From contig OZ017758.1 in NCBI GenBank assembly GCA_963969365.1, forward strand, positions 248,001 to 312,000: 64,000 nt of DNA, read 5' to 3'. Positions 740 to 64,000 of the stretch are shown here, in pieces (the first letter of the stretch is position 1; every line of letters begins with the position of its first letter). The notes beneath the pieces are model-generated. The model saw only the letters and a program-made list of their open reading frames with translations. It made no database searches and was not told the DNA's origin. Position numbers and translations under genes: made by a program. The stretch is from Asterochloris sp. CNOR1 (Eukaryota; Chlorophyta; Trebouxiophyceae; Trebouxiales; Trebouxiaceae).

Positions 740-3700
740 CGTGGAATCAAGCAAAAGGCTGTCCTCGTCCTCTAGAGTCCTGTGCGACATGACTGAGGCT
801 GGGGTCTGGTACCCGTCAGCCTGCATCATGGAGGGGTGCGCGGGCGTCTGGGCACCGCTGTTGGCGAAGATGCCGCCCCCCGCGGGGCCCCCGCTCCAAG
901 TTCCTTGGTCGGGGGCAAAGGGGTTGCCGCTGGTCACCGAGAGAGGGCTGCTGGGGGCGGAGCGCCCCGAGGAGTCCACTGCCCGCTTCAGCGTCTCAAG
1001 CAGGATGATGGTGTTGGTGCCCTGCAGGGGGAGAGGCCCAGGATGTGGGGCAATCAAGGTGCTTCTGGTGAAAGCACAGGTCATGTCGCAGGCACAACCT
1101 GTAAGGTGCCCCGCAGAGGGAGAGGCCCAGATGTGGAGCAGTCACAATGCTTCCTGTGAGGACACAGTCACACTTCATAAGCACAAGTCGTGGAGCACAG
1201 TAACTGTTGACCCTGCCCTGTCAGCTCATGTGGTGAGGGTACACTTTGCACCACAGGCAAATCTTGTGAAGCACAGCAAGTCTTTACCCTGCCTTGCCAG
1301 CACTGCTGAAAGTCTGCAGCGGAACCAACGCGTTCCAGGCCCATGCAGGAGCAGTGTGCAGGAGAGCGGAAGAAGGAAGGGCTGCTCAAGGGGCGCACAC
1401 ACACATGCGGCTGGCACGCCAGATCATGTCTTGAGCAGCATTCTATAACTTCATCTCAGAAAGCTCCAGCCAGAGCCAGCCACCACCAATCACCACCTCT
1501 GGTGCCCTCTGCCGGCATTATGCTGACCTCAGCAGTATCCCAACACTGCCTACAGACGCAGCTCGCAGCCGGCCAGCCCTAGCCCAACACTTCTGCAGCA
1601 GTGTGTGTGGTGACAGTGGGTGGGCACTCACCTGACCGCCAGTGATCCAGTCATCGTGGTGGTGCTCCGTCAGCTTGTAGATCTGCTGGAGCGTGAGCGA
1701 GGGGCACATCCTGCGCAGGTCCGGCGTGATGTCAAAGCCCTGCAGGCAGAGGAGTGCCTTTCAAAGGGCTGCATCTGGCTGTATCAGGGAAGGCAGACAA
1801 GCAGTGCTGAGACAGCAGCCGCAATGTTCATAGCCTGCTATGCATGAGCACTTTGCTACCTCCAGCAGTGTCTAGATGATCGACTGGTTAGGCGGATGCT
1901 CTTGGGCTTCCAGGCTGTAAGGCAAGCTCAACGCCAACGCACTGTCACGCTGGCGGCCACATCGGCAGCGCCTAATACAAGCATGTGACATGTCAGGCCT
2001 GCAGCAGCCTGCAGGTGTGATAGTACACAACTGACCACACGCATTGCCCCACCCCAGTCTTGCTGCTGGATGCCACACACAGAGGCACTTGCAGTAAGCA
2101 TCCTGACCACAGATGTATGCATCTATCACACCTTTGTCGCCTTGCGCACGCAGTCGTCCTTGCCCGACAAGAGGTAGCGCACTGCCTGGTGGCTGTGCTC
2201 CAGTGCACGCTCGGTGTCGCTGGGCTCACCGCACCAATTGCTGCCCATGTAGGCTGCCCACCCCTTGATGTCCGAGAGGCCGCTCTGCAGGGAGGCGGGC
2301 AATTCGTCAGTGCTTTGTTGTGCCAGTTGGCAGGAATGAGCAGGTGCAAACATTGCCTCTGCTAGGCAGTTCTGTCAAGAAAAGTCATGTCCATGATGGG
2401 TAGTGTTCTGTGAGTACGGGCACGACTGGTGGGATGTACGTGGGGGCCTGCAAGGCCGTGCTGCAGGACATCTCCACAGCAGCCTCTGCATGCTATACGT
2501 GGTGGCAGCCCAGTGAGCCTGCTGAAGGCGGCTCACATAAAGCCCTGCAGCATTGCTGTCCTGCTTGCTCTGCAGATCCTTGTAAGATGAGCGCTTCAGA
2601 GGGAGTCTTTGGCGCCACAGTGCATGCACCTAAAGAGTGAAGTAAATGCATGCCATCAAGGCTGGGGGTGACAGACACTGAAGCGTCAGCTCAGGTGTGC
2701 AGGTCACGGCCCACCTGCAACGCCTTGATGGCTGAGATGGAGCAGCAGTCTCGCCGCAGGACCAGCGCATTGAGCAGCTCTGCGTCCACATAACGCAGGG
2801 CTGCTGTCACCACTGCCCGCACCGCTGGAGGTGGGGCCCCCTCACCCCTCAGGCACTCCAGCACATTGGACAAGCCGCCCAGCAGGCCCTGCACGCACAA
2901 GAGCTCATAATTCTGAGCAAGGCTCCTGACCTTCTGGGCCCCCAAGCACAATTGTTATCAGGCCCCTGCAGGTTCAGCAGCAGGCCAAGACCCAGAGCAA
3001 GGCCCGTCCCCCTCAGGCACCCCAGCATCAACTGGACAAGCTGCTCAGCAGGCCGTGAGTGCACAACAGCAAGTCAAAGGTTGCGACAGGGTCAAGCGGG
3101 GCGCTGAAGCATGCCTTGCATGCAGACATGCACTTCCAGCATGCTGCCAGGCAGGGTAACAAGTCAGACAGGCAACAATGATTATGTTGTGGCACAGTAC
3201 AGCTGTGGCGCGGCCTCAGCACTGTGGCATAAGGGCAATCTGACTTTGCTTTGTCCAGCAAGGCAGGAAGGCGCAGCAGCAACAAGAGTCATACAAGCAG
3301 GCAGCTGGAGCCCAGCCAGTGAGTTCCAGCCAGCCAAACTGATGTATGCCTGCCTTTTGATACCTATATTTCTCAGGCCCACCTTCCAGGGAGAGCTCAT
3401 CAGCCCCTCGAAGGACTTGGCCTCTGCGCCGCCCGTGCTCATGATGCCGTTGCCATTGGTGACCCGGTCTTTGTTCCCTTGCTGCCTGCAGGTCAGACCA
3501 AGCCGGGGCTGGCAAACGTGTCATTGCTGCATGCAGCTGCACAGCTGCCCTGCCTGGCCCTGCTATCATTCAGACCATTGCTGCAGGCAGCTGCCAGAAG
3601 ATACTGGTCAGTCAAGTCAGCAGCGCAGAGCTTGAGCTGCACTTATAGGATGCAAACCGCAGAAATGCATGCTTCAGCCTCAGGTACAAGCACGTGCTGC

Positions 3701-6700
3701 CAACAGCAACATGCCGAGCAGAAAAGTGCGATCCCCCAGCCTCAGAGGCAATGACCTGCTAGCCACAGCCTCACCTGGCTTGCCGCTTGGCTTCATCGGA
3801 GAACAGAACGGCCACGTTGACTGGCATCATCTCTGCAACACTAGATGCCAGCAGATGGTGCAGCTGCATGAACTGAATCATTTCATCCCCAAGCTTGAAC
3901 AGGTTGCTGCAGTCGCGCTTCCCAATGCTGCGGACCTGCACTCAGATCACCGCAGACAGGTGAGAGCTGGCTGGCAATAGGTTGCTGCAGGTGCAGCCAT
4001 GGATACACAGACAGTGGCTGAGTGAAGTCAGCCGCAATCAGAAGCCTGCAGCAGGCATCTTGTTCCAGGTCTGATTGGGCAGTCAAGAGGCTACTGCAGG
4101 CGTCATGAACCAGGTCTCGAGTCACTGGCAGCAAGATCATAATGAGCGATCTGGCACAGACTCATGCTTGGGCTTAATCGCTCGCCAGCATCAACAGCTT
4201 GCTCCAGTGCAGGCAGGTGTAAGCCAGCTGTAACAGGGGCTGTCACAGGCTAGAGCGCTGGGTCACAAGCTGGGCAGCAGCTCAGGATGCGGGGTTACGG
4301 CAGTGCAGGCTCAAGACGTCGCACCTTGAGGAAGGCCCCCAGAGCCAGGGTTGTGGACAGCCAGTAAGCCTGTGCAGTCAAGCCCTCCAGCTCTGCAGCG
4401 CTGACCACAGACTCCCGCACGCGGATGGCGGCCACATCAATCTGCACAAGGGATACAACAACATTGACAACTTTTGATTTGTGTTGCCATTGCGATGATC
4501 TTCAGATGTGCGCTTTGTCACTTGTTGTCCTACTTTCTTGCAAAGCGCTGCACAGGGGCTGTACGTGAAGGAACAAGCATTTATCCCTTGCCCATCACGC
4601 AGACCACTGTACTCAAGTCCAGCCAGCTACCCCGCCAAAAGGAACTCAGCATGCCTCACCCCACATCAGAGGGCCCACCACTGCAGCGTGCCACTGTGGC
4701 GGGCAAAATTACACCAAGCTGGCCAACAAGAAGTCAGCAGCGCATATCAGCGGGTCCCAGTGAGAGGGGGGTTGATGCACGCCTCAATGGGCTGCCACTG
4801 CATTGCCCCACGCAGCAGCCATCCCAGATGGCGGCAGACTCGTCCTGCACCAGCTCCACATGCACACGGCAGCAGCACATCTAGGGACCACCACAAAGCC
4901 CTGGTCCAGGGGGCTCCCCCACAGGGCAGCCCGCTGCAGCGGGCACTTACCAGGCTGCGACAGCTTCACAGGCGATAGCAGCTTCACTCCCAAAAAGTAA
5001 CAGCATGCCCAGATGTGGGTTCAGGGTCACCACACTTCAGTCCCTGCCCACCTCAGTGGGCCGCCATCGCAGCGCCCACTGCAGCAGGCACTCCCCCATG
5101 ATCCAGGCGGCCACAGGCATGCCGATGCTGTCCGCAGGAGTGGCCCCATGCTGGATGTTGATGATGGACATGCGCCGCTCCACCACGCCGCTCAGCAGCA
5201 GCTGCAGGGTGGCCTCGTGGTCCCTGTCCAAGCCAGCATCGGGGACTGCCAGCAGGGGCTGGGGGCCGCCCTCCGTGGGGGTGGTGCTGAGCCGGTGGCT
5301 GGCCAAGTTGGTGCCAGGGCCCAGCCTGGTGGCTTGGGGGGTGCCTCTGATACCTGCAAGGCAGAGAGGCAGTGCAACATGAGTTGAGCACTGCCAGCAA
5401 TGTGGGGCTTCACAGTCTGTGAGCAGGTGCTAGTCTGTGGCTGGCCAGGTTGGTGCCAGGCCCCCAGCCTTGTAGCTTGAGGTGGACCCAACAGGCGCCT
5501 ACAATGCGGACTGTCAGAGACGTGGGGCCAGTGCAGTCCAGGGGAGCACTGAGAATCAGCACCGTGAGCAAGGGTGGATGCCCAGCAGACTGCAGTGGGA
5601 AGTTGACCCACAGGTCTCACATGCGCACAATGGGAATCCCCTGGTCCATCAGCTGCTCTTCATACACCTTTCAAAAGCAGAGATTGCTGGCTTGTATGAG
5701 GACCAACCACCAGCACAGTGTACTGACTGGTTTTATCCGCTAGTCATATGCCCGTTCAGTGAGGCTACGGACTCTAACTCTAACAAAGAATGCCTCACCG
5801 TTGGCCTGGCTGAGCACTGCCCCCTGCGAGGGCTCGGCTGCTCGCAAGGCTGCTGCAGCAGCAGCAGCCTCCTGTGCCTGCTGCTTGGCTGCCTCCACCT
5901 CGGCAGTCAGAGCCTTCTCCCGCGCCTGGGTGTCCTTGACCTGCACCAGCCGGGGTTGCTTGTGTACTGCAGACGCTAACAGCTGCAGAGCAGGGGATGC
6001 CACCAGGTAGAGCTGGATCAGAGCATGCTTGGCTAGAGCCCCAAGATCCGCTGCAGCCCATCATCAACATCCCACATGGTTGGCCCTGAAGGGCTGCAGC
6101 ACATCAACCGCCAGCAGCAAAGCAATGGAGCATAGACATTGCTGAAATGCATGTCTATGGGGGTGGGGGTGTGATGTAAGGAGGAACGTCCCTACATGTC
6201 AAAAAGCAAGCATGGCACCTTGTGTGACTACTGCAAGCCTCACAGTGCGCCCAACGCATGCATACTGCCTGCCTGTGACGACAGCACCAGGAGAGGGCAC
6301 AGCATGTTACTGCTTGGGCACAGTGCGCCCGGCGCGTGCATAGTGCCTGCCTGTGACAGCAGCCCTGAGGGTTTACAGCACAGCATGCTGCCATCTCACC
6401 TGCTTGGTCAGCTGGGCCACCCGAGAATTGAGGGCCACCACGCGAGCGCTGAAGTGCACATTCTTCTCGCGCGACTCCCGAAGCGTGGCCGACTGCGCCT
6501 TGGCATCAGCCACTGCATCCTCCACACGCTTCTGCATGGCCTGCTGCACTGCCGCCACCTCGCCCTGCAAGAGAGGCAGCTGGCACAGTGAGGCAGGCGC
6601 AAAGACAATGCCACAGGGAATGCTACCATTACAGCACATGTAGAATATGAAATGGAAACTGCCATTGTGCCCACGATGGACCATCTTCTGCAGAGCCTGC

Positions 6701-9700
6701 TGCACCACTGCACCATCACCTGAGGTTTGGCAGTGTCCAGTGCCCTGCAGCAGCCACAAGCATTGCAGCTAACATCAGCAAGGCTGTACAGGGTGGCTTC
6801 TGTTGAGGGTATCTGGCAGGTAGCCCTGCAGCCGAGCTGCCCTGCAGCAGCCACAATCTTCAGCTTGAAGCAGAGGAACGGCACTGAATGGCTTGCTGCA
6901 TCACAGCAGCCTGGTGCTGCAGTGCAAACCAATGTGTGTCATTCTCGACCTCAGACAGTGCTGCACAGAGGCAAACCCAGCACAGCTGTCGCGTTTCATG
7001 CTTTGCTGTGGCCACTTTGCCCTGCAGCAGCCATTTGCAGCACAGATTGGTCAAAACAGCATGGCTGGTGAGGGATCCATGATGCAAAGTGCTCCGGCCA
7101 CAAAACACGCAGAGCCTCCATACCTCGGCCACCAGCTGGATTGGTTTCCACAGGTTGGACAACCTGCAACCCTCTACCCAGTGCAGCGCCCACTCCATCT
7201 TGGTGCACACGTGTTACAAACATGGATTGTTATGTGCAATGTGAGACACCGAAACCTTAAGGGAGATGGAGTCTCTGAAATAGGAGTAGCAGCGCTCACC
7301 TCCATCTCAGTGCGCAGCTTCTCAATTTCGCCTTGCATGTGCGCCCGTGTTGCCTCCGCTTCTGCCGTCAGAGTCAGGATGGTGGTCTCCTTGGCTGCAA
7401 ACTCAGCATGATACTCCTCAGCTGCCGCGCGGACCTGCAGCACAGAGGGAGTGGTGCACTCTCAGGCCTTGCTGACTGATCGTGGTCAACAGTGCAACTT
7501 TGCAGTGCAAGACTCCCGGGCCTTGCTGGTTGCACGTGATCTCAAGAGCATCAGTACAAGCAGGCCCACCCTATCGCTTGCCTCAATCACACAGCAGAGC
7601 ATCCCTCGCCCTGGAGGGGCGGCACACCCGGGCCTAATGACAAGTTCAGGGCTGTACCACTTTGCAGCACAACATTGACAAGGCCAACGCTCCAGCATAT
7701 CTCACAGATGTCCATCATCTGCTACTGTTGTGCACCACAGAAGTTTCGCAGCTCCACAGCAGGCAAAAGCAGTGCTGGACTGCAGCCCACCACTCACTCG
7801 CTGCAAGAGCAGCGCTCCAGCGCAGGCAGCGTGATGCATTGCACCGCAGGTCTCAAGCACCTTCCCACCCACCACCTGCGCATGCGGTCGGACTGCTGTA
7901 CAGCACAGGCACTGTTGCCAAGCACTGCTGGGAGTTGATCCTATACCGTCCACAACATGACCAGACCTCAAAACGCAATTTGGCCATGCACAACGGGTCT
8001 GATCGGTATGTCTTTGAAGTGGGTATTGAGGAATCAAGGAGTGCTGGCCTGCATTGCGCGGAGTTGCCACCTGCTGCCGCGCCAGTACAGGCAGTCTGGG
8101 GTGCTGCACAGCACATGCAATGCGCAAGGACCACACCTGCTCCCACAGCTTGCTGTTTTCGCGGTCCTTGGCCTGAGCAGCCGACAACATGTCGTCGACC
8201 TCAGTCCTTTTGAACTTGAGCTGACTCTGCAGGTCCTTCACCTGCAGGATAAAAGCACATACCATGGTCTCATAGCATGCCACAGCGCTGGCGAACAGAG
8301 CCTCAACCTGCGGTGGGCGGCACAGAAGGCGACCTAAGATTTGTTGCTGAGCATGCCTTCAATCTGCAGGGGCTCGGCTTGGATGGGCTCTGCGTCAACA
8401 GACATGCCACACAGTTCAGGGCAACAACTTGAGGCCCTCAGGCCGCCTTAAGTGCCCACGCTCCAGAATGTAACTGCCAGGCCTTTCACTTGGCTGCCCT
8501 ACGGCCAGTGCCTGGCTTTATGAAAGCCAGTGAGCAGTGGGCCCAGGTGTGACGGTGCTGAAGCCTTTCAGCATGCCGCTAATGAGCCACGCTGTTCCAA
8601 CCTGCTCATCCAGCTCCTGTGCATGGCCCTCCGAGGACTGCTTCTGCCGCCTGAGCAGCTCCATCTCCTCCATGAGGGCTGCCTGCGCTGCGGCCTGGGC
8701 TGCCTCCAGCTCAGCAACTCGCGAGGCATCCACGTTCGACTGCATCGTCCGGCTGGAGCGCTGAGACTCCTGGTGCATCTGCTCTCGCAGCGTCTGCAGG
8801 GGCACCGGGCAAGGCCTGTGAGTTCTGACCAAAGGCGCATCCACAGCTGCCTTAGTGATACATGATAGGCCAAGGAGCTTGTGACTCCTGAACAAGCAAG
8901 CAGCAGGCAGCGCATGAAGGCCACTCATGCTCGACCCATGACAAGGCAGCTCTGGTATCAGGGCGCCTGTGACGGTACACCCCAGTGGTTAGCAGCTGGC
9001 TTGCCGTGAGCAAAGGGATGACAGCTCCTGCAGGAAGCTTTGGCCGACTACTAGCAGAGCACTGAGCCTGGCACCCCAACCCATGGCAGCCTGCATGCTG
9101 CCCGCCCCACCTGGTTCTCAATTTCTGCCCGTGTGAGCTCTGACTGCAGCCTGTGCGCGCTGGCCTGCAGCTCGCTGGCACGACGCTGCTCTGCCTCCAT
9201 GCGGGCACGATACTGGGCCACCTGTAGGAGCACAATGGGCAGATGGGCTGAGGCAACTTTGGGCACTCGTGCAAGGGTCAGTTTACCTGGACCTCACCAA
9301 TCTGCAAGAGCTTGGTGCAGTGGCCTTAACAGGCAGATCATATTGACGTACTCGGCCAGCTAACTCCTCCAGCCCCCTCTCAATGGCAGGGGACAGGGCA
9401 CATTTGATGATGAAGTCAAGGCGTTTTCGACAGGACCAACAAGAGGGTCAAGCTGCCACACAGGACCCACTGCGGCCCAGCAAGGCACAGACAGGGTCTC
9501 TGCTGCACTATCACCAATGTGCAATGCAGCCCAGCAGGCAGGCAAGATTCATCATCAGATTCCGCAGACATGCACTGCAGCCCCCAGAAGTCAGGAAGCA
9601 GGCTCCATGATGAACCTGCACAGGCACGCACAAACACGGAGGGGGAGGTCCAAGCAGGCATTTGCTCAACAATGAGTGGCCCACCTGCGCCAACAGAGCC

Positions 9701-12700
9701 TCCCGCTCGCCAGCCAGAGCATCTCGGGAGTCCAACAGGTCCCGCCACCGGGCAGCCTCTGCCCTCCTGGCTTCCAACTGCAGGCAGAGGCGACTCCTTG
9801 GCAGGACGGGCAAGCAGCAGCACATGGACGCAGGTGCAGGCACAACAGACCGTAAACCCTAGGGCCATGCGTAACATAGAGTGGCTTCTGTTCTGGGTGC
9901 ACCTTGCAAGTCAGGCATGCAGCGCTGTCAGACCTTCTGCCAACCCATTCAGCATCTCCCCCCACAATCAGAGTTGCAGCTGCCCACATAGTAAGCAGCA
10001 ACAGACTGACCGCTGAAGGCGGAATCCGGATGCAACCCAGAGGCTAAACTCTTGCAGGCAGAAGCAGCCTGGACCCAGTAGCCCACCTGCATGCACGCCA
10101 GCCAGCGGCGACAGTACTTCTGCAGTACCACAGCTGCGTCGACACGCCTGGCCACTGCAGCTGCTCGCAGGGCAGCCTTCCTGCCGGCATCTGTGGTGCG
10201 CCTGAAGCGGAGGCGCGTGAGCCACATGCGGACCCAGCTCTGGATGATGGTGGCCTTGTGGTTCCTGCAGGGAGGTGCGGTCGAGGTGGGTTCCGTTGAG
10301 AGTGTGGGTGGTCTCCCTGCTTGACACACGCTGCGGTTCTGAGATGCTTCAGCGCACAGCAGCTTGACCACAGAGGGGAAGCCACTGAGTCCCATCCTTC
10401 TGACCAGAGCCTGACAAGCAGCACATTACCTCACCAGCCTGCTGGTCAAGTTTCAGAGTCAGCCATGCACCACAGAGATTGCAGGGGCAGGAGGGGACTC
10501 TGATCAACACCTTATTCCTGTGTACCTGAGTGCGTGTCGCTTCTCAGGCAGCACAGGTGCAGTGCTGTGGACAGGCAGCCAGAGACTATTGCATGCACCT
10601 TCATGCATAGGAGGGTGCCCAGCTGCTCTCCAGGCAGCACAGCAGCAGCGGTCCCACCTGCACTTGCCTCTGAAGCTGCAGCACTCTGGTTTTGGGTCGA
10701 GTGGCTGGCACTCAAGTTGCAGGGCGAGTGTGCTCACCGCAGATGCAAGATGTACATCGTCCTGCACTTGTGCGCGCGCCAGGCTGCAGCGATGGAAGTG
10801 ACCGCCCGCTCCTTGCGAAGCTGCTGCACCCACAGCCGAGCCTGGTGGCCTCGCCACAACGCCTGCGGCAAGCATGGACCCTTTCAGGCCAGACATTCTG
10901 CATAACCAGTGTAGCTGCTGCTCTGCACACATCAAACATGCACAAGCCTGTTGCGTCTTTGAAATGGCAGCGGTGCAAGAAGGTGCAAGCTGACAAGCTC
11001 TTCGAAACATGTGCAGGGCCTGGCCCTCCAGCACAAAGCCTGCAGCATGATTAGTGCTGAAGAGCCAGGCTCAGGGGCAGTGGCGCGCTGCAGGAGCAGC
11101 GCAGGCAGCCCCTCTCCACAGCGACGATGTGATGCCCTGTGCCAATCTTTGCAGTGCCTGGGCTCAGGCAAGCACAGTGTCACGGCAAGCAGCAGCCAAG
11201 ATGGTGACGGTGCTGGGCACCTGTACTCGGGAGGCAGCCCGGCGGCCACGTTTGAGTTCCCGCCGCGCAGCCAGCCCACGGAAGGCTGCCTGGATGATAA
11301 TGGCTGAGGCTGTAAGGTGGCGGCCCCTGGCACCCTGCAAACAAGCAGCGAGCAACTGACTGTCTCCATGCAGACCTGAGGCAGCACCTACTGGCCAAGC
11401 AGCAGCCTGTCCAGGGTGCAGACAATCAGTTGCACTGCAGAGACACAAACAAGTTGATACAAGATGCACACAGCCTTTGCTGCGGTCAATCACAGCATCA
11501 CAGTCAAGAAGCTGTCATCAAGCACAGGTTGGGAGAAGGAGTGGCACATGACTGTTGGTCACAGCCGCCATGGCAGCTGCAGCTGCACACGCTCAAGCAG
11601 GGCCCATCGCAGCACTTACAGCTGCCCAGGAGTCAGGTGCTGCAGACGCTTCCAGGACTCACCTCCATCTGAGCCAGCTGCCCAGCACGCAGGAACACCC
11701 GTGACTTGCCGATCTGCCAGCCTTCTAGGCGCACGGCCTGGAGGATGCGCCGCGACAGGTCCGCAGCCTCCTCATCAGCCAGCTCAGAGGCGTCTATGGG
11801 GTTGTAGGTGCCCTTGCCCCTCGCCAGGAGGATGTGGTACCGCTGCACGAAGGGCCTGCAGACACCACTTAACCAACACTGTTGCAAGAGACGTCTGTGG
11901 GTTGTAGGTGCCCCTGCCCCTCGCCAGGAGGATGTGGTACCGCTGCACAAAGGGCCTGCAGACACCATTTGGCCACCAATGTTGTACAGGCATATCACTT
12001 TGCCGTCTCCTTCTGACTGTTTGCTGTTGCTTGTGTCAAGTGAACAGATGGGGGCCAAAACTGGCTCTGGCAGTAGAGGTGGCTGCTCAGTCATCGAGAT
12101 GGTAAGGGTGCTAAAGACTGCTGGCTGGGGCTTGTGGGTACGGGGGCCAACATTGTGTCAGGCTGGCTATGGCAGGTGGAACCCCGCAGCTGGACCCCAG
12201 GCAGCACAGGGCGTAGAGCATGCAATCGCTCCAGCCTAGATGCTCAGCATGCCAGCTGGCTGCAGGTGCCTGCAGCTTGGCCACAGGTTCAGACAGGTCA
12301 CAGGTGCGCGCCATGCAGGGGTACATGGTCACTCAAGCTCCTGCCGAATTGCAGACTCAACGACAACGCCAAGCCTGTCGACTGGCATTGGAGTGCTGAT
12401 CGCAGGGAGTTCAGGAGGCCAGGTATACACCGCCAGAGGCACCCACTGGGCTTGACTCTGGCACTGGCTGCCACACTGGGCAGTGCTAACCTGAAGGGCT
12501 TCCTTGTGGGGAAGCCGGCACAGGCGATCCTCACGGCCTCCAGCACTCCTCCTGCCCTCAGCTGCTCCAGCACATACGGCGGAGCCAAGCTGCCAGGCTG
12601 GGACTGAGCGTTGGGCTTGATGCACCTGCAGAGCAGCGTGGGCATGGCTGCCTGACCTGGATGAAACCAGCTTCCACATGGAAATCAGCTGTCTGACCTG

Positions 12701-15700
12701 ACGACAATGCAGTGATCCATGCAGACAGCCACAGTGGTGGCCCTTTCAAATCACCCGCAGGTGTGAGCTGAATGCAGTAAGTTCTCGAGACACAAAAGTT
12801 GTTGTGTTCTGGATTTGGCTGCAGGCAACCTGTCCTCTGCCTCACCTGATGTAGTGCGGCTGGCACTGGTTCAGCGTCTGCATGAGGCCCTGCAGCTGCT
12901 TCCTGAAACGAGCTCCCACGCTGTTGAGCTTGTAGGCGCTCTTGCTGACCCGCCCCGGCCTCGACGGGGGCGGCGCCTCTGCAGGCTCTGTGTCCTCAAA
13001 GATGAGCCTGCACAGTGCGGTGGCAGTCCGCAGACAGCCCTCTGCACTCTTGAGAGCACAAATATGGCCCCTGCAGGCTCCGTGTACTTAAAGAAACTCC
13101 TGCAAAGAGCAGTGGCGCTCCCAGCAAGCCGAGAAGCCGGCCCCAGGACGCTGAGCCACACCTGACAAAGTCAAACTCAGAGCTGGCCATCAGCTGGGCG
13201 TGCTCTGCGATGACAAAGTCCTTGTTCTTGTCCATCATGAACAGGCTGCTGTAGGTGACCTGTCCCGCGTAGTGGTCCACAGTGAAGCTGTGAGGAGGGC
13301 GCTTTGGGGCTGAGAAGCGTGGGTGGTCGTCAAGCTTTGTCCTCACAGTGTGGGCCAGGTCCTGCAGAAATCATGCAGGTGTGAGATGCTGCAGCTTGCG
13401 CAGACTGGACGAGAGCACCGCCTCATCTCGGATCAGACGGATCCGGCCAAACTCTGCTCCATCCCCCTCAGCACCTTCAGCGGGAATGGCTGTCTATGCA
13501 GGACATGCCTGCACAAGCACAGCCGACGCATCTTTGAAGCGTTCAAGCTTGTTTCCGTGACTGCCCAGGGCAGAGCTGCAGGCGCAGGCACCTTGCCAGG
13601 TCAGACTGCAGGTGCACTCAGCACAAGGTAGCAGCAACACCATTGCGCCGTACACAAGCCAGCAGCAGGCAGTGGCGCCACAGCTTGGGGAGCAGCAGTG
13701 CACAGCAGAAGCAGCCAGTGGTGCCAGCCGCCCTGGTGATGTCCTCATGAGAGCAGGGCCCGATATGTAGTGCGGGGCAGCCTGCAGGCCTCATCAATGA
13801 GAGAAAAGACGGCCACTGCTGGCAGCCTCATGAGTGCAGGGCCACCCCTGGTATGTAGGGCAGGGCAGCCTGCAGACCTCATCGATGACGGGGGCCAATG
13901 GCGATTGCTTGTGACCTTGTGAGAGCAGGGTCGCACCTGGTAAGTGGCGCGGGGCAGCCTGCAGGCCTCATCAATGAGGGGAAAGACGGCCATGGATGGC
14001 GCATTGGCTGAGCCCTCCAGCAGGTCCAGACAGTCCTGGTTGTCGATGAACTCCACGTAGCTCCAGTCAATGCCTTCCCGCGCGTACTCTTCCTGCACGA
14101 TGGCGCTTTGGCAACCTGCTCAGCAGCAGCTCAACGGAGCGCGGCGGGCCCCTGCAGAACTGGGTGCCAGGCAGCACCCCCTGGTGCCCACAGCACACTG
14201 CACCCTCAGCTGATCACGTGCCGAGCAGCTGAAGACCAGTGGCCAGGAGCGGACGCTGCCGCCTGCTCCCATGCTGCAACCTGAGACGATGGATGTGCAG
14301 GAGCAACAGGTTCCAGTCTGTGAATGGTCTAGCACTTTGGCAGACAGCTTGGAACGTCCAGTCACTGCGGGACAGGCACCTACCTGCTCGCCCTTGAAGA
14401 CGTGCTCATTGAACTGCTGCTGCAGGCGCTCGTTGGCCAGGTTGATGCACAGCTGCTCAAAGCTGTTCTCCTTGAAGGATTCGAAGCCATAAATATCCAG
14501 GATGCCGATGGTGCGGTGCGATCGCCGTCCAGTGCCTGTAGGCCCATTTGTCAGTTGTCAGGCAGCAGAGTCAGCGCCTGGCTTGCCAGCTGCAAAAAAG
14601 TATTCACTTGATCATCAAGCATTTGTGACCCAGTCGTGGGCAGCCAAATCGCCACCGGGAGTACCAGGGAGGCTGATGCATGAGCCGCCTGTGCCCATGG
14701 GAGTGATGCAGACTCTTGAAAGCTGCTGTGCTGCAGGCATCTGAGGATGCCCCAGATCTCAGATAAGCGAGTTGTGCACTGTGGCTCACCCAGAGCTGAA
14801 ATCTTCCTGTTGATGGCAGCCACGAGCCAGTCAAACAGCTTGGCGTACAGGTTCTTTGCCAGGGCATCCCTGCTCTCTGAGGCCGCCGTGGCATCAAGAG
14901 ACTTGATGAAGCGCTCCCCCACCGTCTCAATTGCGCGGGTCGTCAGTGCGGTCAGCAGCTGCTCCTCACTGACCTGTGAAGTCATCAGAAAGCTCAGCAA
15001 CCTTGGACTGGCAACAGATTGGTGCACTGGGCCCCGCAAAAGCTTCCTGTACCGGCTACAGACTGCAGCAGGCCTGTTGAACAGGGAGGGCCAGCTGAAG
15101 TGGTTGACCAACAGAGAGTCTCTGAAGTCCATCACCTGTAAGCCAATGTCTGCAGGCTGACAAGCCCCCAAGCAACAGGCATGTGTGCCACCTGCTGCAT
15201 ACTCAGGGCCTGCTGCTCAGCTGGGGACAGCCGCACAGATCACTGGGATTGCTGCGGCTGCGCAGTGGCAGCTGCACAACCAGAGGGCGCATGCAGGCTG
15301 CTGCCTCACCTCCAGGAAGGTGGCGACGTTGAGGAGCGCCTGCTGGGCTGCCTCATCAGAGATGACAGCCTCATCAGAGTCCCCCTGGGTGAATGTGATG
15401 TTGCCGATGTGCAGCACAGCGGCCACAATTGTCAGCACACTCTCCCGGTCCTGCAACAAGAAGAGAGCCGCGTGAGGAGTAGCAAATAACAGGGGGGATG
15501 CACTGCTTGATGCTGCTCCCAACGCGCACCTGAAAGGCAAAATTTCACAGTGCCAGGCTGCGGCCTGGGGTGGCAGGCTGCACGCCTTTTTCGCATGCAG
15601 ACCTGTAGTTGTGGCGCCCGTCAAGGTTCCCAGCGTTCTGTCGCCAGCCAGCACACGAGAGCAACAGCCGGAGGACGTCACTTGCCAAGGCCATGCTGGC

Positions 15701-19790: not shown

Positions 19791-19935
19791 GGTGGTGGAG
19801 GCACATGTGAGCGCGATAACCTGACGCTCGATCCAGCAGACTGCACGTCATGTGCTGTCCACAGCGCCCTGTAGAGGAGGGGTGCATCTGTGAGTGCACA
19901 GTTGCAGCGCCAGAGTGCATGCTGCAGGCGTGGGG
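19720..19935 (-). repeat. degenerate copies of the myosin first-exon start
   Basis: Three units of about 82 bp begin near 19725, 19807 and 19889. The second translates in frame as ERQVIALTC, a diverged echo of the first-exon [10 protein letters not shown]. They extend upstream of the proposed start codon, so the true 5' end is uncertain. Confidence 0.6.
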
Positions 19936-33291: not shown

Positions 33292-35276
<1,985 letters not shown>

Positions 35277-46978: not shown

Positions 46979-47118
46979 TCAGGGCAAATCTAAAATTCAA
47001 TTTGCAATACTTCTTCTCTGTTTTGCAACAGCAGGTCAGCCTTCAGGACTCAATCACCGTCATGAGGATTGCTGCTGGGAGCGCCCAGATCTCTGAATCT
47101 GACAAGCCGGTATGCTGC
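46979..47118. promoter_or_regulatory. 140-bp gap between two minus-strand genes
   Basis: Separates the stop of the upstream gene (47119) from the proposed start of the 2OG/SUMO-like gene (46978). It must serve as 3' UTR of one and promoter of the other if the start is right. It is more A/T-rich than its surroundings; no TATA box could be defined. Confidence 0.45.
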
Positions 47119-49802: not shown

Positions 49803-50173
49803 CTGCATCCAGTCAATCACTTCAGCTTGGGAGCACAGGCAATCCAGGCAAGCAAACACTGGGTGGCCATGCAGGGGCTTGCCCTCCTGCAAACATTGGC
49901 AAGTTGTGCTGGAGCACAGGGGAAGCGCATGCCAGCTGGTCAGCCAGAGATCAGGCCCTCTGCAGTAGTGGCAGAGCCACGCTGTAGAGCACAGCAATGT
50001 TGAGGGGCACAGGCTGGCCACACAGACAACAGCAGCCTGGACAGTTCAAGCAGTCAGAGAAGCACACGCTGGCTGGTCACACAGAGCCCTGCACGTAACA
50101 GAGCAGCTGCCTTGTGGATGCTGGCGCACTTCACCTGCACACACGAGGGCAGCTGGGGGAGCCTGCAGCGCGC
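49803..50173. other. probable intron within the channel tail
   Basis: 371 bp between the stop of the frame of the large tail exon (50174) and the acceptor of exon 48506-49802. It contains no recognised domain and repeated GGCCA/GCACAGG words. A phase-1 donor near 50230-50240 would join the two parts. Confidence 0.45.
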
Positions 50174-53100: not shown

Positions 53101-56100
53101 AGGGAAGCACTTCTTGGTACCCTTGGCAGGATTGCGGATCCTCACACCCGCTCGGGGACAGGCAGTGGAGGCAGACCTGCCACCCCCTGGCTCAAGGGCT
53201 GTGTTGCTCCCACCAAGCAGTCATCAGAGCTTGAGGGTGGCATGAGCAGCTGGGCATGTTGAGCAGTCCAGCAGCAGCAGCAGCATGTCCAGGGGGTTGC
53301 TCTTGAGGAGGAGCCCTTGTCATGTGACCAGGCTGTGCCACGGACTTTAGAGACCTTGCCGCTCTCAGAGTTTCTGGTCATGTGACCAGGCGGTGCCGGG
53401 GACCGTACCTTTCCACTTTCGGATGGGCGAGCCATCTTGGTCTTCTGGGCGACTGCATTGGCACGCACTGCTTGTATGAGGCTGGTGAAGGCCCCAGTCT
53501 TGCGTTTGCGCAGGAAGGCCTCGCTCCAGTCGTAGCGCATCCCACCAAACCTTCACATCAGAGTGATGCACACCTCAATTTGTGGACGGTAAATTGACAA
53601 GCTGCACAGTGCTGCAAGGCGCTCAGCTGGCTGGCAGGCACCGGTGAGCACTGGAGTGCCGCACACCCTGCAGATTTGACGTCTGAGTGCAGCAGCAGGC
53701 ACTCGGACTGACAGGTGCCTGCAGTCTTCCGCCACGTTGATGTGAAAGTTTGCACCGCTGCGGGCAGCCTCTGGAAGCCCACCTGTCAATCAGGACCTCT
53801 GCCATGGCCCTGAGGTCCACCACAGTGGTCATGCCAGGCCAGGCAGCCTGCAGGTCGCGCCCCAGCTGGTGGTTCAGGTCGACCACATCGTACAGGCGCC
53901 CGCCCAGCTGCAGGCCCTTCAGCCCCTGGCCCCTGTCCTCATCTAGACCCAGCAGGCGCTCCCACCAGGTGTGACGCTTGAACTGGATGCCGCGCAGGCG
54001 ATCCCAGCGACTGCCTGCGCGCTTGCGCCTGCAGGGTGGTGCTAGGGTCAGCAGTGGCCAGTTTTGGGGTAGCAACGACCGGATGTTGTGCAGGAGACGT
54101 CAGCGACTGCTGGAGGCCGCTCACACCCACACCACCCTTGAGTCTGTGTATGCTGTGAGGCAGGGTGAAGGCAGAAGCAGCAGCACAAAGCCCTGGACCA
54201 CTGCTGAAAGTGCTGTACAATTGTTGAACTCATTGATGAGACACATGTGCGCATCTCTCAGGTGACGTTATGGTGCATGCCCACTACCGCGCAGCATGCT
54301 GTTGCAGGTAACACAGCCTGTTCCCAGAAGCTGGGTGGTCTCCTCTCTCATGAAACGGAAGGGGTGCCCCCCCGCCAGAAGACACCGCATGCAGAGCCAG
54401 GCCCACCTCTCAGGCGCCACAGCAGCCATGTTCCGGGTGATGCGGCGGTTGCTGGGAGCCCGCTTCAGCAGCATCTGCAGCCACTGGCGCAGCATGGCGG
54501 CCACATCAGTGTGGATGCCCGGGTCGCCTCTGCCCCGGCGCTTTTGCGCCTTGAACTCCAGCACCATGGAGGGGATCAGCACGCTGCAGGCAGGGCGCAG
54601 CAGCTGGTCAACTGGGAGGCCGAGACCTGTCTGGGTGACACATGCGGCTGGGTCAGCCGCTGATAGGCCTGCTGCCGTTCATGACTCAGCATGCTGCAGC
54701 CAGGGGCCAGCAATAGCTGGTAAGTGGAGCAGCAAGAGCCCTGTCCATGCAGGCTTCACATGGCTAGGCCAAGCGATGTCGGCCTGCCTCTGAAAGGTGC
54801 CTGTCAGCACCCAGAGGCAGGACCCCTGTTTTGCTCAGGGTCAAATTTGGGTGGGCAATGCTCCACCTTGGAACCAGAGCTTAGCCTAGCTTTGTGGGTG
54901 CTTACGATCACCCTTGGATGTAGTAATGTGCTGCATCATGCCCTGTACTCGGCACAACGTCAGTTCCAGGCACCCGCAGTGGACACAAGGCAGACCATGC
55001 TTGCACAGCAGCTGGAGGTGTCTGTTGTGGAGCAGCATTGCTCTTGCAGGAGGCCAAACTCACTTCCAGAGAAGGATGATAAGGGTGAAGGGGATGAGCA
55101 GGTACCAGGCGTAGGCCAGGGCTGTGGTCAACCAGTTGAGTATGTTTTGAGACAGCGGCTCGTTCTGGACGTCCTGTGTGGATGGCTCCACCTGGGTGCT
55201 GAAGAACACCTCTCCCATGCCTGCAGGGACAGGATGCTGCTCATACGCAGGATGCCTCTTGCTGGCCATATCGTCTTTGCAGACTGGCATGCTTCCGTTT
55301 GTTGGCTGCAAGCGCTGCTGTGCTGCTCATGAGCAGGTGTGTCAGGCACACAGGCACCACAGACAGACAAAGCTGCCTGCAGGATGAACAGCGCCAACCT
55401 GACAGGGCCAGGAACAGCGTGGTGAGCCGCGGCGCAAAGTCGCCAAACACTACCACGCCCAGGGATGCGTACATGATGGCTACCAGCAAGAAGGAGAGGA
55501 GGATGAACCCAGTGACAGGGGCCACCTGCAGACCAGGACCTAACACCTAACTTCGTCAGCTGCTGAAGTCTGGTTTGTGCAGATGAGGAGGTCAGCATGG
55601 TAGGTGCCGCCACAAGTGCATGCCTGCAGCTAGAGTTTTTGTGGGCAGCGGCCAGCTCAATCGAGAAGAACGACTCCCACACTGCAAAGACCCCAGTGCT
55701 TGCGGCCAGACAGCTGCCTGCAACCTGCAACACCACTGTCTGTGAGGAAGGCATCAGCACACATGAGCAGGAGGCAGGCACTGCACTAGTATGGGCAGCA
55801 CAACAGGCTGGCCTACATACACTGCGGCCCCCGAAACCCACGCCCACCTGGACCAGGGTGGTGGTGATGATGCTCAGCCGCTTCTGCATGGACAGCACCC
55901 TCATCTCCTTGACGATGACCAGCAAGATGCAGATGCCCTGGATGCTGGAGTAGTACTGCCTCAGCGAGTTGACGACTGTGCTGAGGTAGTACAGGTAGGC
56001 AAGGGCATCCAGGTCTGCAGCCAGGCAGCACCTCCTTGAGGCACGCTGAGGGTCAAGGCATTCAGGGCAGCAGGCATTTCCAGAGCTGAAGCGCAGGAAG

Positions 56101-59100
56101 CCTGGTTGGCAGGCGACCACAGAGCTGCATTGCAGTGCAATCAGATTGGCGGGCAGGCACAGTGCTGACGCGCAATGCATCCGGTGTGCAGGAAGGCACA
56201 GCCATGAGGCCTGCTGACAGGCCCATGCCGCCCCCCAGCAGGTGGGCAGGCAGGCAGGCACGCAGGCGTGTGGGACTCTGGAGGCCATGCGACAGCACCA
56301 GCAGGCAGGCAGCTCCATCAAGCATGCTGAGATGCATGTATTGACCCAAGCCGGTGTTCAGGCTGACATGCTGGCCCACCAATCAGGCTGCAAGGCATGT
56401 ACACATGTCCTTCGCCCCAGGTGGCCATTTGGCAAGCTTCTTTGGCCTAGGGTGACAGCGCGGCCTGATGCGTGCAGTGTAGGGCACAGCATGACACAGG
56501 CCAATTGACAGCGTGTCAGCAGAGCTTAACCGCCTGCTGGGAAACACAAGTGGCAGGCAATACACTATTTGACCCCTTCCTGGGAGTCCTAAGCTCAAAA
56601 ACCATTGTGTGTTTTTACGATGAGGGCCTGCCGCCTGGGGAAGCACAGCACTGGTGAGTGGTTGTGGTTAGGCTGCAGGCTCCGGTGGCAGATTCAGGGA
56701 CCTGCCTAGGTCATTGTCTGGCAGGGACCACCTGCCAGGGTCTCCGGGAGCGGCTGCGGCAGACCCAGGGACCGCCTGCCAGGGTTCCCAGGGGCGGCTG
56801 CAGCAGATCAAGGGACTTGCCTGTGTCATTGTCTGGCAGGGACCACCTGCCGGGGTCTCCAGGAGCGGCAGCCCAGGTGCCATTGCTGACAGCTGGCTGC
56901 TCCTTGGCCGCCAGCAGGATGTGTGCGTCTGCGCTGAGGTCGTCATATATGGCGTAGCTCTTGCCAGGGTCGATGTCCCCTATGCGCTGCCCCACTATGG
57001 CAAAGCCCACCAGGAGGCACCCAGCTGTTACAGTCAGCACCAGCAGGCTGCCATCGTAGAGCAGCCAGAAGCCACTCAGCCGGTCCTGCAGTACAGGCAG
57101 CGAGGCCGAGTCAGCTTGGCCAGTGCTGGGCTGGCAGGTCCAACACGTGACATGGCTCCGCTGCCCAGGCAACGCTCAGCGCTGGGCTGGCAGGTGCAGC
57201 AGGCATTTGCTGCCTCAAGCCTGGCAGGGGCAGCGCACCAAAGCAGAGGGCAGCTGTCAAGGCATTGGCGCCAACAGTCATCAACCGAGGCTTGCCAGGC
57301 AAGAACAGCCGCACGCTATGGGGAATGTGGTGCTAAAATGGCGGGCGCCACAGAGTGACACTTGGCCACCAAACAACCTGGCTGCGTTGTGGACAGATGC
57401 TGTGCAACAAGGCAACAGGCGTCACAGCCGTTGGGCTCACCAGCTTGGCCAGCAGCATCTTGCTGTGCTTGAGGCGGTCCCTGATGCCTAGCGCCACAAA
57501 GACAGCCTGCACCGCGGCCAGCAGCAGTACCAAAACATCCACCACGCTCTGTCGCACGCCCAGACTGGTGCGCACGCTGTAGTATTCGGAGGGCAGCGCT
57601 GAGAGGGTGGCTTTGTACAGCACCGCTCCAGCGTTCACCCACACAAACTTGATCTGTATGAACCTGCATATCAAGGTGGACGAATGAATCGCAGCCAGGC
57701 AAGCTTGCGCAGGGCTTCGTCGTGGGCACATTGCAGGCTGACGGAGAAAGCAGAGAGACAATTTGATGCCCACATACAGTTGTGGGCCAATCCCTCACAA
57801 GATCCTGGCGATTGATTGTGCCAGCCCCTGCCACTCATGATGCACACAGGTGCACCACACCCACACCAACCGCTGCCTATGGGTGCAGGTGCAAGTGCTT
57901 CCATTGTTGCAATGCCTCGGCGGGATGGTGTGCAACTTCCTAGCACAGGGACCCCGCCTTTTGTCGGTCCCCACTTGGCACATGTTTACAGGCACAGTCA
58001 GCCCTCCTGCAAAGCTGCAGTGGCTCAGCACATGTTCACAGGCACAGTCAGCCCTCCGGCAAAGTTGCAGTGCTCAGCACATGGTCACAGGCACAGTCAG
58101 CCCTTCTGCCAAGCCGAGCAGTGGCTCAGCAGGTGTTCACAGGCACAGTCAGCCCTCCTGCCGATCTGCAGTGGCTCACCCAAAGACGCGCAAGGCAGCA
58201 TTGTAGGTCACAACCTCCAGGGTCAAAGTTGCGCTGCGTGAGTCCAGGAAGTTGGCCACCATGAGGTACTGCAGCAGTTCTGCGCAGGCGGATGCAGAGA
58301 GGCCGTTGATGAAGATGACAGGCCAGCCTGCTGGCTGGTGGGGGAAGTTGCGAGTGTAGAAGGCAAAGGGCAGGCCATAGACGCTGACGTCTGCAGAGGT
58401 GTTGTAGAAGCTGCCTGCAACACCATCAGCAGTCTGCTCAGCTGGAACTTGCTAGCTGCCTGGACATGATCTGCACCACTGCAGCCACCACATAGCCCAT
58501 GTTCACACCACAACAGCAGTGCAGAGCAGCAGGACAGTGGTTGGCAGCAGCCAGCTCTGCAGGCCAAGCACTGCTGCCCCTAGCAGCACTGCTTCCTCCT
58601 GCAGGGGGTCAGAGTCATCAGAACAGCAGGTGGTGCCGACACACGGGAGGGTGCGCCAATCTGCCCAGGAGGCTTGAGAAATGATAAGGCAGCAGCCACC
58701 GACATGCATCTGAGAGGCTTACCAATCTGCCCCAGGAGGCCTGGGTTGGAAAAGGCTGAGCCTGTCAGGAATACAGGGTCCACACCAAAGGGCGGCAGGG
58801 CGGCTCCAGCATCAAGGCTCTGGGTGTCCCCAGAGAGGGCAGCTGCTGTGTCTGTGGTGCTGAGGGCTGTACCGTTGCTGTACACTGTGCCTGAGACTGT
58901 GCAGGCCACAATGAAGCGCTGGAAGCGGCTGGTGCAGGTGTAGCGCTGCCCCACATTGCGCGTCTGGTGCAGCAGCATGCCGCCCATGATGGCGTTTGAC
59001 CCCAAGTAGCCTGCAGGACGGTCCCACAGGGACATGAGCGCTCCAGGGGTTGCGAAAGCAGTAGACCAAGCTGCAGGCAAAGCGCAGATAGGACAGACTG

Positions 59101-62100: not shown

Positions 62101-64000
62101 GACGCAGCACTCAGGATGCAGCACCATCTTGCACAGAAGGAGAGGGACATGCTGCAGTAAGGTCTGCATGCTGCACCGCGTCCGGCCAGTTGACGCCCTG
62201 GCCAGCCCAGTGTCCATTCCGGCTGAACAGCCAACTGTGACCAGCAAAAATGTGGACACATCTGCACAGTCCAACTCACCCTAGTGAGCAGGCAGATGGG
62301 ATGCGGCACACGCCATCGCTGCACAGCGTCTGTTCACTGGGGCAGGGGTTGGTGATAATGACTGTCCTGTTGATGGACGCATTGTGGCTGGGAATGTTTT
62401 GGTCAAACACCAGGAACTCAATGGTGTACTTGGTGCCAATCTTGGCAGCGGCGTTCAATCCACAGCTGCCAATGCCTTGCAGGTGAAACTGATAGCCTGC
62501 AGATGGTGGGGCAGCAGTGGTCTTGCCAGCTTCTGGCTGCAGCCCTGCCAAGCTGCATGCAGCAGCTTCATTGGCTGTACTACTGCTGCCACTGGTGCAG
62601 TGCAAGCTTCTGGCTGCAGCCATGCCTAGCTGCATGCAGCAGCGTCATTGGCTGCACTACAGCCGCCACTTATGCACAGTGGGAACCACTGGCTGCAGTG
62701 TAGCCAAGCTGCACGCAGCAGCTGCATGTGCTGCTGCCATTGGTGCAGTACAGGCTCTTGGGCTGCAACAAAGCCAGGCTACGTGCAGCAGCTGCATGGG
62801 GCTTTCTTTGCTGCCACCAGTCATGCAGCGACACACACCTGGCTGCTAAGCATTCAAGCAGCTGCTCTTTCATCCTGCAGGATGTCAGGTGCACACCAGG
62901 CTGGGCAGCACTCACCTTGGCAGCCTGTTGCAAGGCAGGAAGCAGCTGGGCAGGCCAAAATGGATGACGTCAGGCTGCTTCCTGATGCGTCACTGGCCAC
63001 CGCTCCCAGCTCACAGGGAGCATCTGTGCTGGGCAGCACCCCCGTGGAGCAGGCAGTGTAGTTGTGACCCTGCAGGCAGCTCATATACTGAACTGCTGCT
63101 GTGCGCCGAGGAGCAGGCTGATCAGATGTGACATGGTGCAAGCAACAAGAGTTGCTGTTCTGCTTCAAGGAGCCGGCAGCAGCGTGAGAGGTGCAGGCCC
63201 ATGCTGCCAGTCAACAAGCCTCTGGCACCAGCTTGAAAGGTGCAACAAGGTGAGTTGCTGCCATGCAACAATCCTCTGGCACCATCAAGGGAGGTGAAGG
63301 CAAGATGACTTGCTGCCTGCATCAAGCCTCTGGCACCAACTCGGCAGGGGCGCCAGACATGAAAGGCCCAGATTTCAGCTGGCTGTCTGCTCGCCTGCCT
63401 GACCGACACAACACTGGAGAGCGCAGCAGTAGTGACGAGTGTGATGGTGGGTCCTGTCTGGACGGTGGCTTGGGTTACAAAGCCGCCTGAGGCTGTGAGG
63501 TCTGCCAAACAGATGCCGGTGTAGCTGCAGCTGACCTGCACATGGCCAGTTAATCGCATGAAACCTCAACAGCAACTCACATTTGAGGCAGGACTGTGCC
63601 ACGGCAAGCAGCATGCCACAGTCCTTGACGGGTCACCTTATCGTTGCAGCACTGTGCAGCTTCCAGCAGCGTGCCAGACTGTTTTCTAGGTCTCCATGTG
63701 GTGGCAGAACTGTAAGGCTGGCAGCAGCATGCACATACTGTAACGAGTCACCTTGTTGTTGCAGACATGTTCGCCCACGGCGCAGACGATCTGCACAGTG
63801 ATGGTACGGTTCACGCCAGCTGATAGGCCAGCGCTGTTGGTGACTGAGTATGTAACTGTCAGATTGCCGGGAGTGGATGTGTCCAGATTGCAAGCCCTCA
63901 GACCATTCTGGCTGACCAGATACCTGCAGAGCCCAAACATGTGCTGCTGTCAAAGGTGATGACAAGCAAGCTGGCAGGCCACCTGATGTTGCCAAACTGA
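50174..64000 (-). CDS. polycystin (PKD2/TRPP)-like cation channel, N-terminus beyond the window
   Basis: Minus-strand TRPP-type channel; the 5' end lies past 64000. From the N-terminal side: extracellular Cys-rich Ig-like units (61790-63995), then Ser/Ala/Asn-rich segments with RRLLST (60370-61160, 59830-60110), then the polycystin domain (59340-59490; 58720-59030 with IMGGMLLHQTRNVGQRYTC and GVDPVFL; 58170-58410 with NFLDSRSATLTLEVVTYNA). Membrane exons follow: 57430-57670 (VVDVLVLLLAAVQAVFVALG), 56865-57090 (SLLVLTVTAGCLLVGFAIVG), 55850-56025 (SIQGICILLVIVKEMRVL), 55400-55530 (FILLSFLLVAIMYASLGVVV) and 55070-55220 (last helix, YLLIPFTLIILLW). The GTGAGT after LLW joins in phase to NVLIPSMVLEFKAQKRR at 54415-54590. 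Cytoplasmic exons are 53785-54030, about 53405-53560 and 53092 down to about 50200 (Ala/Ser/Pro-rich, about 950 residues). In other eukaryotes such channels sit in the flagellar or ciliary membrane and pass cations. A TM1 helix before the polycystin domain was not identified. Confidence 0.88.
53320..53425 (-). repeat. 57-bp duplication of exon end and donor
   Basis: TCATGTGACCAGGC(T/G)GTGCC occurs at 53320 and 53378. Each is followed by a donor and, on the minus strand, by ESGK(V) coding. The right-hand copy ends the exon MARPSESGK; the left-hand copy repeats NSESGKV within the intron. Confidence 0.88.
55598..55760 (-). other. possible extra channel exon or intron
   Basis: An open stretch reading GVFAVWESFFSIELAAAH lies between the exons with RLSIITTTLVQ and VTGFILLSFLL. 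It could be a short exon of the S4-S5 linker, or part of an intron. In PKD2 the two flanking segments are nearly adjacent, which favours intron. Confidence 0.35.
56100..56300 (-). repeat. degenerate repeats in channel intron
   Basis: Units built of GGCAGGCACAG(T/C)GC or AGGAAGGCACAGCC, CAGGCAGGCA and GCATGCCG occur through 56145-56300, spaced about 25-50 bp. No coding frame is conserved. Confidence 0.55.
56695..56880 (-). repeat. 114-bp repeat of a channel exon end
   Basis: GGGAC(C/T)TGCCT(A/G)(G/T)GTCATTGTC and the following CTGGCAGGGACCACCTGCC(A/G)GGGTCTCC are found at 56698 and 56812; a third partial unit lies at 56767. The minus-strand reading of the exon end, AAAPGDPGR, is echoed in the copies. 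Confidence 0.88.
57975..58180 (-). repeat. four tandem 50-bp repeats starting at a splice donor
   Basis: CACATG(T/G)T(T/C)ACAGGCACAGTC, then AGCCCT(C/T)CnGC, starts at 57979, 58029, 58078 and about 58130. The right-most unit abuts the donor of exon 58170-58410, and each unit repeats the intron start TGAGC(C)ACTGC on the minus strand. Confidence 0.93.
62525..62825 (-). repeat. four tandem repeats of about 75 bp in an intron
   Basis: CTTCTGGCTGCAGCC(C/A)TGCC, then (A/T)AGCTGCATGCAGCAGC, occurs at 62530 and 62607, with diverged units at about 62687 and 62757. The array sits in the intron upstream of the exon encoding IGTKYTIEFLVFDQN. Confidence 0.92.
63180..63345 (-). repeat. three tandem repeats of about 60 bp in an intron
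   Basis: CAA(G/T)CCTCTGGCACCA occurs at about 63213, 63270 and 63323, each preceded by TGCTGCC. It lies between two extracellular-domain exons of the channel. Confidence 0.85.

Follow-up and report, generated by a model that had tools for sequence, protein, structure and literature searches.

Local direct repeats carry copies of splice junctions into the introns of the green alga Asterochloris sp. CNOR1

Introduction

Why do some introns of a green alga contain copies of their own splice junctions, and does any process aim at these borders? The origin of intron DNA is rarely visible, because introns diverge fast. The window in this study is a stretch of 64,000 nucleotides of Asterochloris sp. 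CNOR1 (C13:248001-312000), taken from a whole genome of 56,383,464 bases in 21 contigs. The initial annotation of the window claimed that introns of unrelated genes hold diverged copies of the adjoining exon border, including the donor or the acceptor, and that a genome-wide process is responsible. Herein, the window is compared with other parts of the same genome. The pattern is real and was found in every stretch sampled. It is probably best explained by a recurrent and untargeted tandem-duplication process that is seen through selection.

Sample, gene models and measures

The sample comprised 314 kb, namely the window plus 25 pieces of 14 other contigs that together make up 250 kb. Adjacent pieces were joined, which resulted in 16 stretches (the window and 15 others). 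The GC content of the window is 0.53-0.67 in 2-kb steps. Genes were modelled by a self-trained ab initio gene finder from the sequence alone; the models are without RNA support and some are merged. Within the 314 kb, 54 genes with 619 exons and 565 introns were predicted, with a median of 126 nt for the exons and 284 nt for the introns. The consensus in these models is CAG|GTGAGC for the donor and CTGCAG|G for the acceptor. The coding score was at least 8 in 57% of the predicted exons and below 2 in 12%, and 201 of the 565 predicted introns were flanked on both sides by high-scoring exons. For orientation, the genome of Asterochloris glomerata is reported to have 56 Mb, 173 genes per Mb and 9 introns per gene (PMC6652019).

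Repeat pairs were collected at an ungapped score of at least 18 and a distance of 20-600, and three dinucleotide shuffles of the whole sample served as the control. Locus counts include spacings up to 300 only. In the simulations, duplications that were wholly exonic or that crossed more than one border were thrown out. The first simulation of class shares covers the intron-intron, exon-intron and junction-intron classes only (189 of 234 events); the simulation with re-predicted genes and the simulations at four divergence settings cover the same three classes only (106 of 134 loci). Five window proteins were scanned against Pfam: three of the four predictions entire, and stretches of 470 and 538 aa from the fourth, which is 4016 aa long. 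The domains found were myosin head/IQ/DIL, protein kinase, MFS, sperm-type CH domain, DAHP synthetase I, alpha-tubulin acetyltransferase family (ATAT1) and polycystin (PKD) channel.

Results

Direct repeats are local and mostly tandem

At a score of at least 18, 247 direct pairs were detected in the 314-kb sample, 62 of them in the window, versus 0, 1 and 0 in the three shuffles. Inverted pairs at the same score and distance numbered 8. The same scan of a 50-kb stretch of E. coli K-12 found 0 pairs. Repeats were present in each of the 16 stretches, at 0.5 to 11 per 10 kb at a score of at least 20; the claim of a genome-wide process therefore holds for all 15 stretches outside the window. After merging, 234 events remained (61 in the window), and 134 loci had a spacing up to 300.

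The reach of the repeats is short. The median spacing was 111.5 nt, with a tail beyond 160. The pair density was highest at a spacing of 80-124 nt (6.7 and 5.3 per 1e6 position pairs), fell to 0.10 per 1e6 at 500-699 nt, about 70-fold below the peak, and reached about 0.005 at 3-8 kb. Fifteen pairs were spaced 1 to 2 kb, and most of those listed sit in one repeat-rich stretch, L022. Within the sampled stretches, 7 direct pairs at 2-12 kb were found, plus a single block duplication near 14 kb. The block, of about 1.5 kb, lies at 3130-4707 of stretch L012_013 (C6:500001-520000), and its direct repeat follows 13.96 kb further on, at about 17.1-18.7 kb. This stretch is the poorest in local duplications, with 0.5 per 10 kb at a score of at least 20. 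In L022, repeats that contain GGGGAGGGG- and CACCAAAA-like stretches are also dispersed over about 2.1-3.6 kb, spaced 1.0-1.5 kb apart.

The structure was examined in 52 strong pairs with gaps allowed. The similarity covered at least 85% of the period in 31 pairs, 60-85% in 7, and less in 14, several of which are second-order pairs of an array. The 31 strong tandems had a gapped identity of 0.70-0.97. This agrees with the earlier description of copies that range from near-identical to barely visible, which had suggested repeated events over time. In 27% of 175 events similarity ran past the core; for complete tandems simulated with short indels, this share was 69-81%. The weaker events are therefore read as partial, eroded or filler-containing duplications. 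Non-tandem copying as the main mode was hinted at by this core-extension test, and the hint weakened once larger gaps were allowed; it may still apply to the weaker events. Whether copies abut with little or no microhomology was looked at in 12 two-copy rows, three of which belong to the array at 57978. The offsets ranged from -41 to +12 and stayed within 5 nt in 7 of the rows; the copies are diverged and their breakpoints blurred. Overall, the copies are direct, local, and tandem or partly tandem, with the source mostly within about 200 bp, which is the form looked for in duplications at staggered breaks.

Sixteen junctions of the window have intronic copies

Copies of exon borders in at least a dozen introns had been claimed for the window. 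By our gene models, the border is copied into an intron at 16 junctions of the window, 8 donors and 8 acceptors, and 12 of the 16 have the copy in their own intron. For the other four (5051, 15997, 38532 and 56731) the copy lies in a neighbouring predicted intron, and the short predicted exon in between may be spurious. Nine junctions belong to the myosin gene, one to the kinase gene, one to the MFS-containing prediction and five to a merged ATAT1 and PKD-channel prediction. The core identity is 0.68 to 1.00. The spacings are 71-166 nt in 13 cases and 269-389 nt in three. Events run from 1016 to 63732, slightly beyond the claimed end of the span (1017 to 63345).

The predicted myosin gene (740..19790, minus strand) has 37 predicted exons, is open at its low end, and carries the Pfam domains Myosin_head (1.3e-202), IQ and DIL. 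All features below are on the minus strand unless the plus strand is named. Acceptor borders with a copy in their own intron are found at 1016..1130 (junction 1021, period 89), 2867..3070 (junction 2888, spacing 166), 6741..6856 (junction 6744, a 19-nt identical copy at spacing 97), 11736..11984 (junction 11855, a near-identical copy with period 100) and 12975..13121 (junction 13007, spacing 92). The donor border at 13936 has two copies in its intron with a period of about 89 (13740..14016), and the donor border at 16683 has one at spacing 130 (16546..16702). The copy of the donor border at 5051 lies in the next predicted intron at spacing 269 (4776..5090). At 15846..16111 the acceptor border is duplicated, with sites 15896 and 15997 at spacing 101, and the used site is uncertain; here the gene finder probably added extra myosin-head exons, which are absent from both paralogue predictions.

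Outside the myosin gene, the donor border at 23476 of the predicted kinase gene has a diverged copy in its own intron at spacing 92 (23350..23506), and the donor border at 27612 of the MFS-containing prediction has one at spacing 83 (27591..27707, plus strand). In the merged prediction, the acceptor border at 38532 has its copy in the neighbouring predicted intron at spacing 389 (38503..38932). The donor border at 45262 has several irregularly spaced copies in its intron, with spacings of 91-507 (44766..45316), and the donor border at 48051 has a copy in its own intron at spacing 71 (47952..48079). The acceptor border at 54583, in the prediction with the PKD-channel domain, has a copy in its own intron at spacing 110 (54576..54712). 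A three-copy repeat at 56688..56880 has donor-like sites 56731 and 56846, with the copy in the neighbouring predicted intron.

Other tandem arrays touch only introns or only coding sequence. Intron-only arrays lie at 57978..58178 (4 copies of about 50 nt), 62524..62800 (3-4 copies, period about 77) and 63153..63351 (period about 54). In-frame coding repeats lie at 48993..49374 (a tandem duplication of 162/171 nt) and 36082..36289 (a tandem repeat of 69 nt).

The window myosin was compared with two further predicted myosins, in stretches L028 and L029. The three have few exactly common intron positions: alignment columns 227 and 680 for the window and L028, and columns 296 and 728 for L028 and L029. 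Several other intron positions are a few codons apart, as if slid or replaced. Dating the duplicated introns by this paralogue comparison failed, since too few positions are exactly common. In the L028 paralogue, a border of another intron is duplicated (322-388 and 444-510, with the donor at 368). A search of viral contigs for algal DNA with the myosin stretch found no relative.

Duplications are probably filtered by selection, and copied motifs persist

The period is divisible by 3 in 14 of 14 wholly exonic tracts, versus 25 of 90 intron-only tracts and 39 of 122 mixed tracts. Because the gene finder requires open frames, it favours the exonic result to some extent. In exons of at least 150 nt, repeats cover 10.5% of the outer 25 nt, 7% of the next 25 nt and 1.6-3.9% of the deeper parts; in introns of at least 400 nt the cover is 6-11%, with one deep bin at 3.5%. 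The cover near exon ends indicates that these ends tolerate duplication almost like introns. A depletion of repeats between genes was dropped as a claim: the predicted intergenic DNA amounts to only 30 kb, and gene models are merged.

The copies were also said to lay down decoy splice sites, and the motifs bear this out. AG is kept in 28 of 35 copied acceptors, 26 of which score no lower than the 5th percentile of the predicted acceptors. GT or GC is kept in 25 of 32 copied donors, with 18 no lower than that mark. This retention indicates that the decoys are not visibly erased. The donor copies match the simulation in motif keeping. For the copied acceptors of the 314 kb, the motif identity is 0.877 versus 0.767 in the flank on the exon side and 0.777 on the intron side; the neutral simulation gave 0.894 for the motif and 0.900 and 0.880 for the flanks, and thus does not reproduce the better keeping of the motif.

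Introns with a repeat locus (n=115) have a median length of 466 nt, or 330 after removal of one unit per locus. Introns without a locus (n=450) have a median of 252.5 nt, or 397 when length-weighted; the latter value indicates that longer introns are also larger targets for duplication. By an upper-style estimate, about 7.7% of the intron bases fall in tracts beyond one unit, in line with the proposal that the process lengthens introns.

Border overlap exceeds random placement and is reproduced in one of four settings of an untargeted simulation

In the whole sample, 67 junction-copy pairs were identified on the ab initio models, 56 of them within the junction's own intron. Of the 1130 junctions, 49 different ones have such an own-intron copy, 25 of them donors and 24 acceptors, and they belong to 46 of the 565 introns. 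Are borders duplicated more often than other positions? They might be, if the junction motif (CAG|G or CTGCAG), transcription or exon-placed nucleosomes provoked duplication, or if selection kept the copied sites. Placing the repeats at random speaks for such targeting. Border-spanning events numbered 83 of 225, versus 60.8 ± 6.5 by random placement in the gene, and 0 of 500 placements were as high; 60 of 129 loci overlapped a junction, versus 42.4 ± 4.9 (1.4-fold). An enrichment of repeats at borders over shuffled positions, which the initial annotation proposed as a check, is seen by this count. With high-scoring exons only, 25 border loci were found versus 17.4 ± 3.9; an excess was seen to some degree for acceptors (16 versus 9.3) and not for donors (9 versus 9.5). 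However, random placement alone is the wrong null, because copies in exons lose similarity more slowly and duplications in exons are purged.

The simulations take account of such effects. In the first one, the simulated junction-intron share was 20-26%, versus 33% observed (63 of 189 events). In one matched simulation with re-predicted genes, it was 25% (109 of 435) versus 41.5% observed (44 of 106 loci; p 1.5e-4). Three of the four divergence settings also leave a border excess (p 0.007 to 0.05). The fourth setting, with a core identity of 0.81 versus 0.82 in the data, shows no significant excess (donor p 0.11, acceptor p 0.41); it was singled out afterwards for this match. For the 106 loci it gives donors 15.9% versus 20.8% observed, acceptors 18.6% versus 19.8%, intron-intron repeats 42% versus 41%, and exon-intron repeats 23% versus 18%.

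A motif as the hot spot was rejected. CTGCAG occurred at 0.31 versus 0.11 in intron-only cores, but this count was pseudo-replicated; with each array counted once, it was 5 of 28 versus 3.0 ± 1.7, which is not significant. The lack of a frame preference in the mixed tracts also stands against targeting, and the better preserved acceptor motif stands for it. Taken together, border targeting is not needed for the observed overlap, and a special aim at borders is weakly supported at most. We consider a border-targeted process unlikely.

Intron birth, mobile elements and assembly error

The initial annotation mentioned that tandem duplication of AG|GT-containing segments has been proposed as a source of new introns. 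Under this Rogers model, which is documented in other systems (PMC4974935), the introns would be born by duplication of AGGT-containing exon segments and the repeats would be birthmarks. One candidate is consistent with it: a near-identical 68-nt tandem array at 545-748 of L022, where the predicted intron 608-742 spans about two periods and has similar donor and acceptor flanks. Apart from this sole candidate, a donor and an acceptor in register in two unit copies were found in none of the 565 introns. The donor and acceptor flanks of the same intron are 25-26% identical outside the motif across the 565 introns, the same as random pairings. Birth by duplication is thus very improbable as the general source.

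Mobile elements or introners, which would spread shared sequence through introns and are reported in 5% of the species searched in one survey (PMC9860276), are likewise very improbable, because the similarity is local within the sampled stretches (the few pairs at 2-12 kb and the one block near 14 kb aside) and the array at 57978-58178 was found in one place when searched in the whole genome; the comparison for dispersed sequence was made within stretches, plus this one array against the whole genome. Assembly error is hardly credible either: tandem copies can in principle be mis-assembled, but no positive sign was found, the strong tandem copies are 70-97% identical and so not identical, and repeats are present in every sampled stretch.

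Discussion

We propose that a recurrent and untargeted mutation copies segments of about 50-250 nt to a place right next to the original, without inverting them. Within coding exons, such duplications would persist only if in frame, and intronic ones would persist freely. When a duplication crosses a border, the exon-nearest copy would stay in use and the other copy would turn into intron, so that the duplication would be harmless. Each such survivor would lengthen the intron and leave a diverging copy of the donor or the acceptor. With introns that measure just two to three units, a sizeable fraction of the survivors would cross a border. Random duplication and selection suffice for this account, given that the wholly exonic tracts are all in frame. 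The local direct repeats, their reach, the tandem form of most strong cases, the exon/intron filter and the retained decoy motifs are direct observations. A single mutational process presumably lies behind all of the repeats, and the exon-nearest copy is presumably the spliced one. The biochemical cause would most likely be end-joining repair of staggered breaks with fill-in synthesis, which has been put forward for insertions in rice and observed at induced breaks in mouse stem cells. Several results weigh against the untargeted account: three of the four divergence settings and the two other simulations leave a border excess, the acceptor motif is kept better than its flanks, beyond the simulation, and the low share of events with similarity past the core points to many partial, eroded or filler-containing weaker events. 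The choice of the matching setting after the fact and the part of the gene finder in the in-frame result also weaken its support.

A bolder version appears doubtful to us, somewhat more so than border targeting. It holds that the rate of 50-250-nt duplications is unusually high in this genome, that mirage-like junction copies (in the sense described below for amphioxus) are a normal content of its introns, and that acceptor copies keep their motif beyond the neutral level and are recruited or tolerated as alternative sites. If this is true, the genome would offer a natural experiment on how introns grow and slide.

Up to about 8% of the intron bases (upper-style estimate) lie in recognisable tandem copies of neighbouring sequence, with decoys at graded ages. 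With RNA data, the alga allows one to ask how the spliceosome ignores a near-identical site about 100 nt away. It also allows one to ask how fast introns grow by duplication versus mobile elements. Annotators are warned that the decoy sites probably misled the gene finder used here.

Comparison with known systems

Among the matches listed, consisting of titles and abstract openings with thin coverage of the subscription literature, none described repeats of this kind from a green alga. Intron gain by tandem duplication, as in the Rogers model, has been described for potato RdRp and for novel intron positions in Drosophila (PMC4974935, PMC2891723). The kind of mutation is the same; in the alga, however, existing introns grow, and births were not seen, one candidate aside. 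In human duplicated genes, internal tandem repeats at exon-intron boundaries are reported to alter splicing (PMC2812944). The alga likewise has tandem repeats that overlap exon borders, whereas the human case is described as transcript-backed and linked to novel introns; the algal case is read from DNA and has no general sign of novel introns.

Break repair gives a second comparison. Natural insertions in rice are reported to be tandem and partly tandem copies (via PMC7407515). Staggered breaks are reported to lead to tandem duplications by cNHEJ in mouse stem cells, and the same paper cites comparable duplications in A. thaliana and in human cells (PMC5730883). The algal repeats resemble the rice and mouse duplications in being direct, local, tandem or partly tandem, and tens to hundreds of bases long. 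Those are natural insertions or induced events, whereas the algal copies are diverged and their breakpoints blurred.

The closest relatives are the "mirages" of amphioxus, described as tandem repeats that span exon-intron borders in the Adh3, troponin C, globin and PGBD5 genes (PMC3087553, PMC3902484). According to these reports, the units are 10-160 bp (60 and 108 bp in PGBD5), both donors and acceptors are involved, AG/GT is kept in many copies, and splicing is reportedly undisturbed. The algal repeats also span the border at both the 5' and the 3' side (25 donors and 24 acceptors). Their median spacing and their peak at 80-124 nt are within the amphioxus range, and many but not all copies keep AG or GT/GC. 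Mirages are described from a few chordate genes, some of them length-polymorphic, whereas here 49 of 1130 predicted junctions of one green algal genome are involved, mostly with diverged copies. Border-spanning repeats are thus already known from amphioxus, and the alga adds a new, dense case of the same kind.
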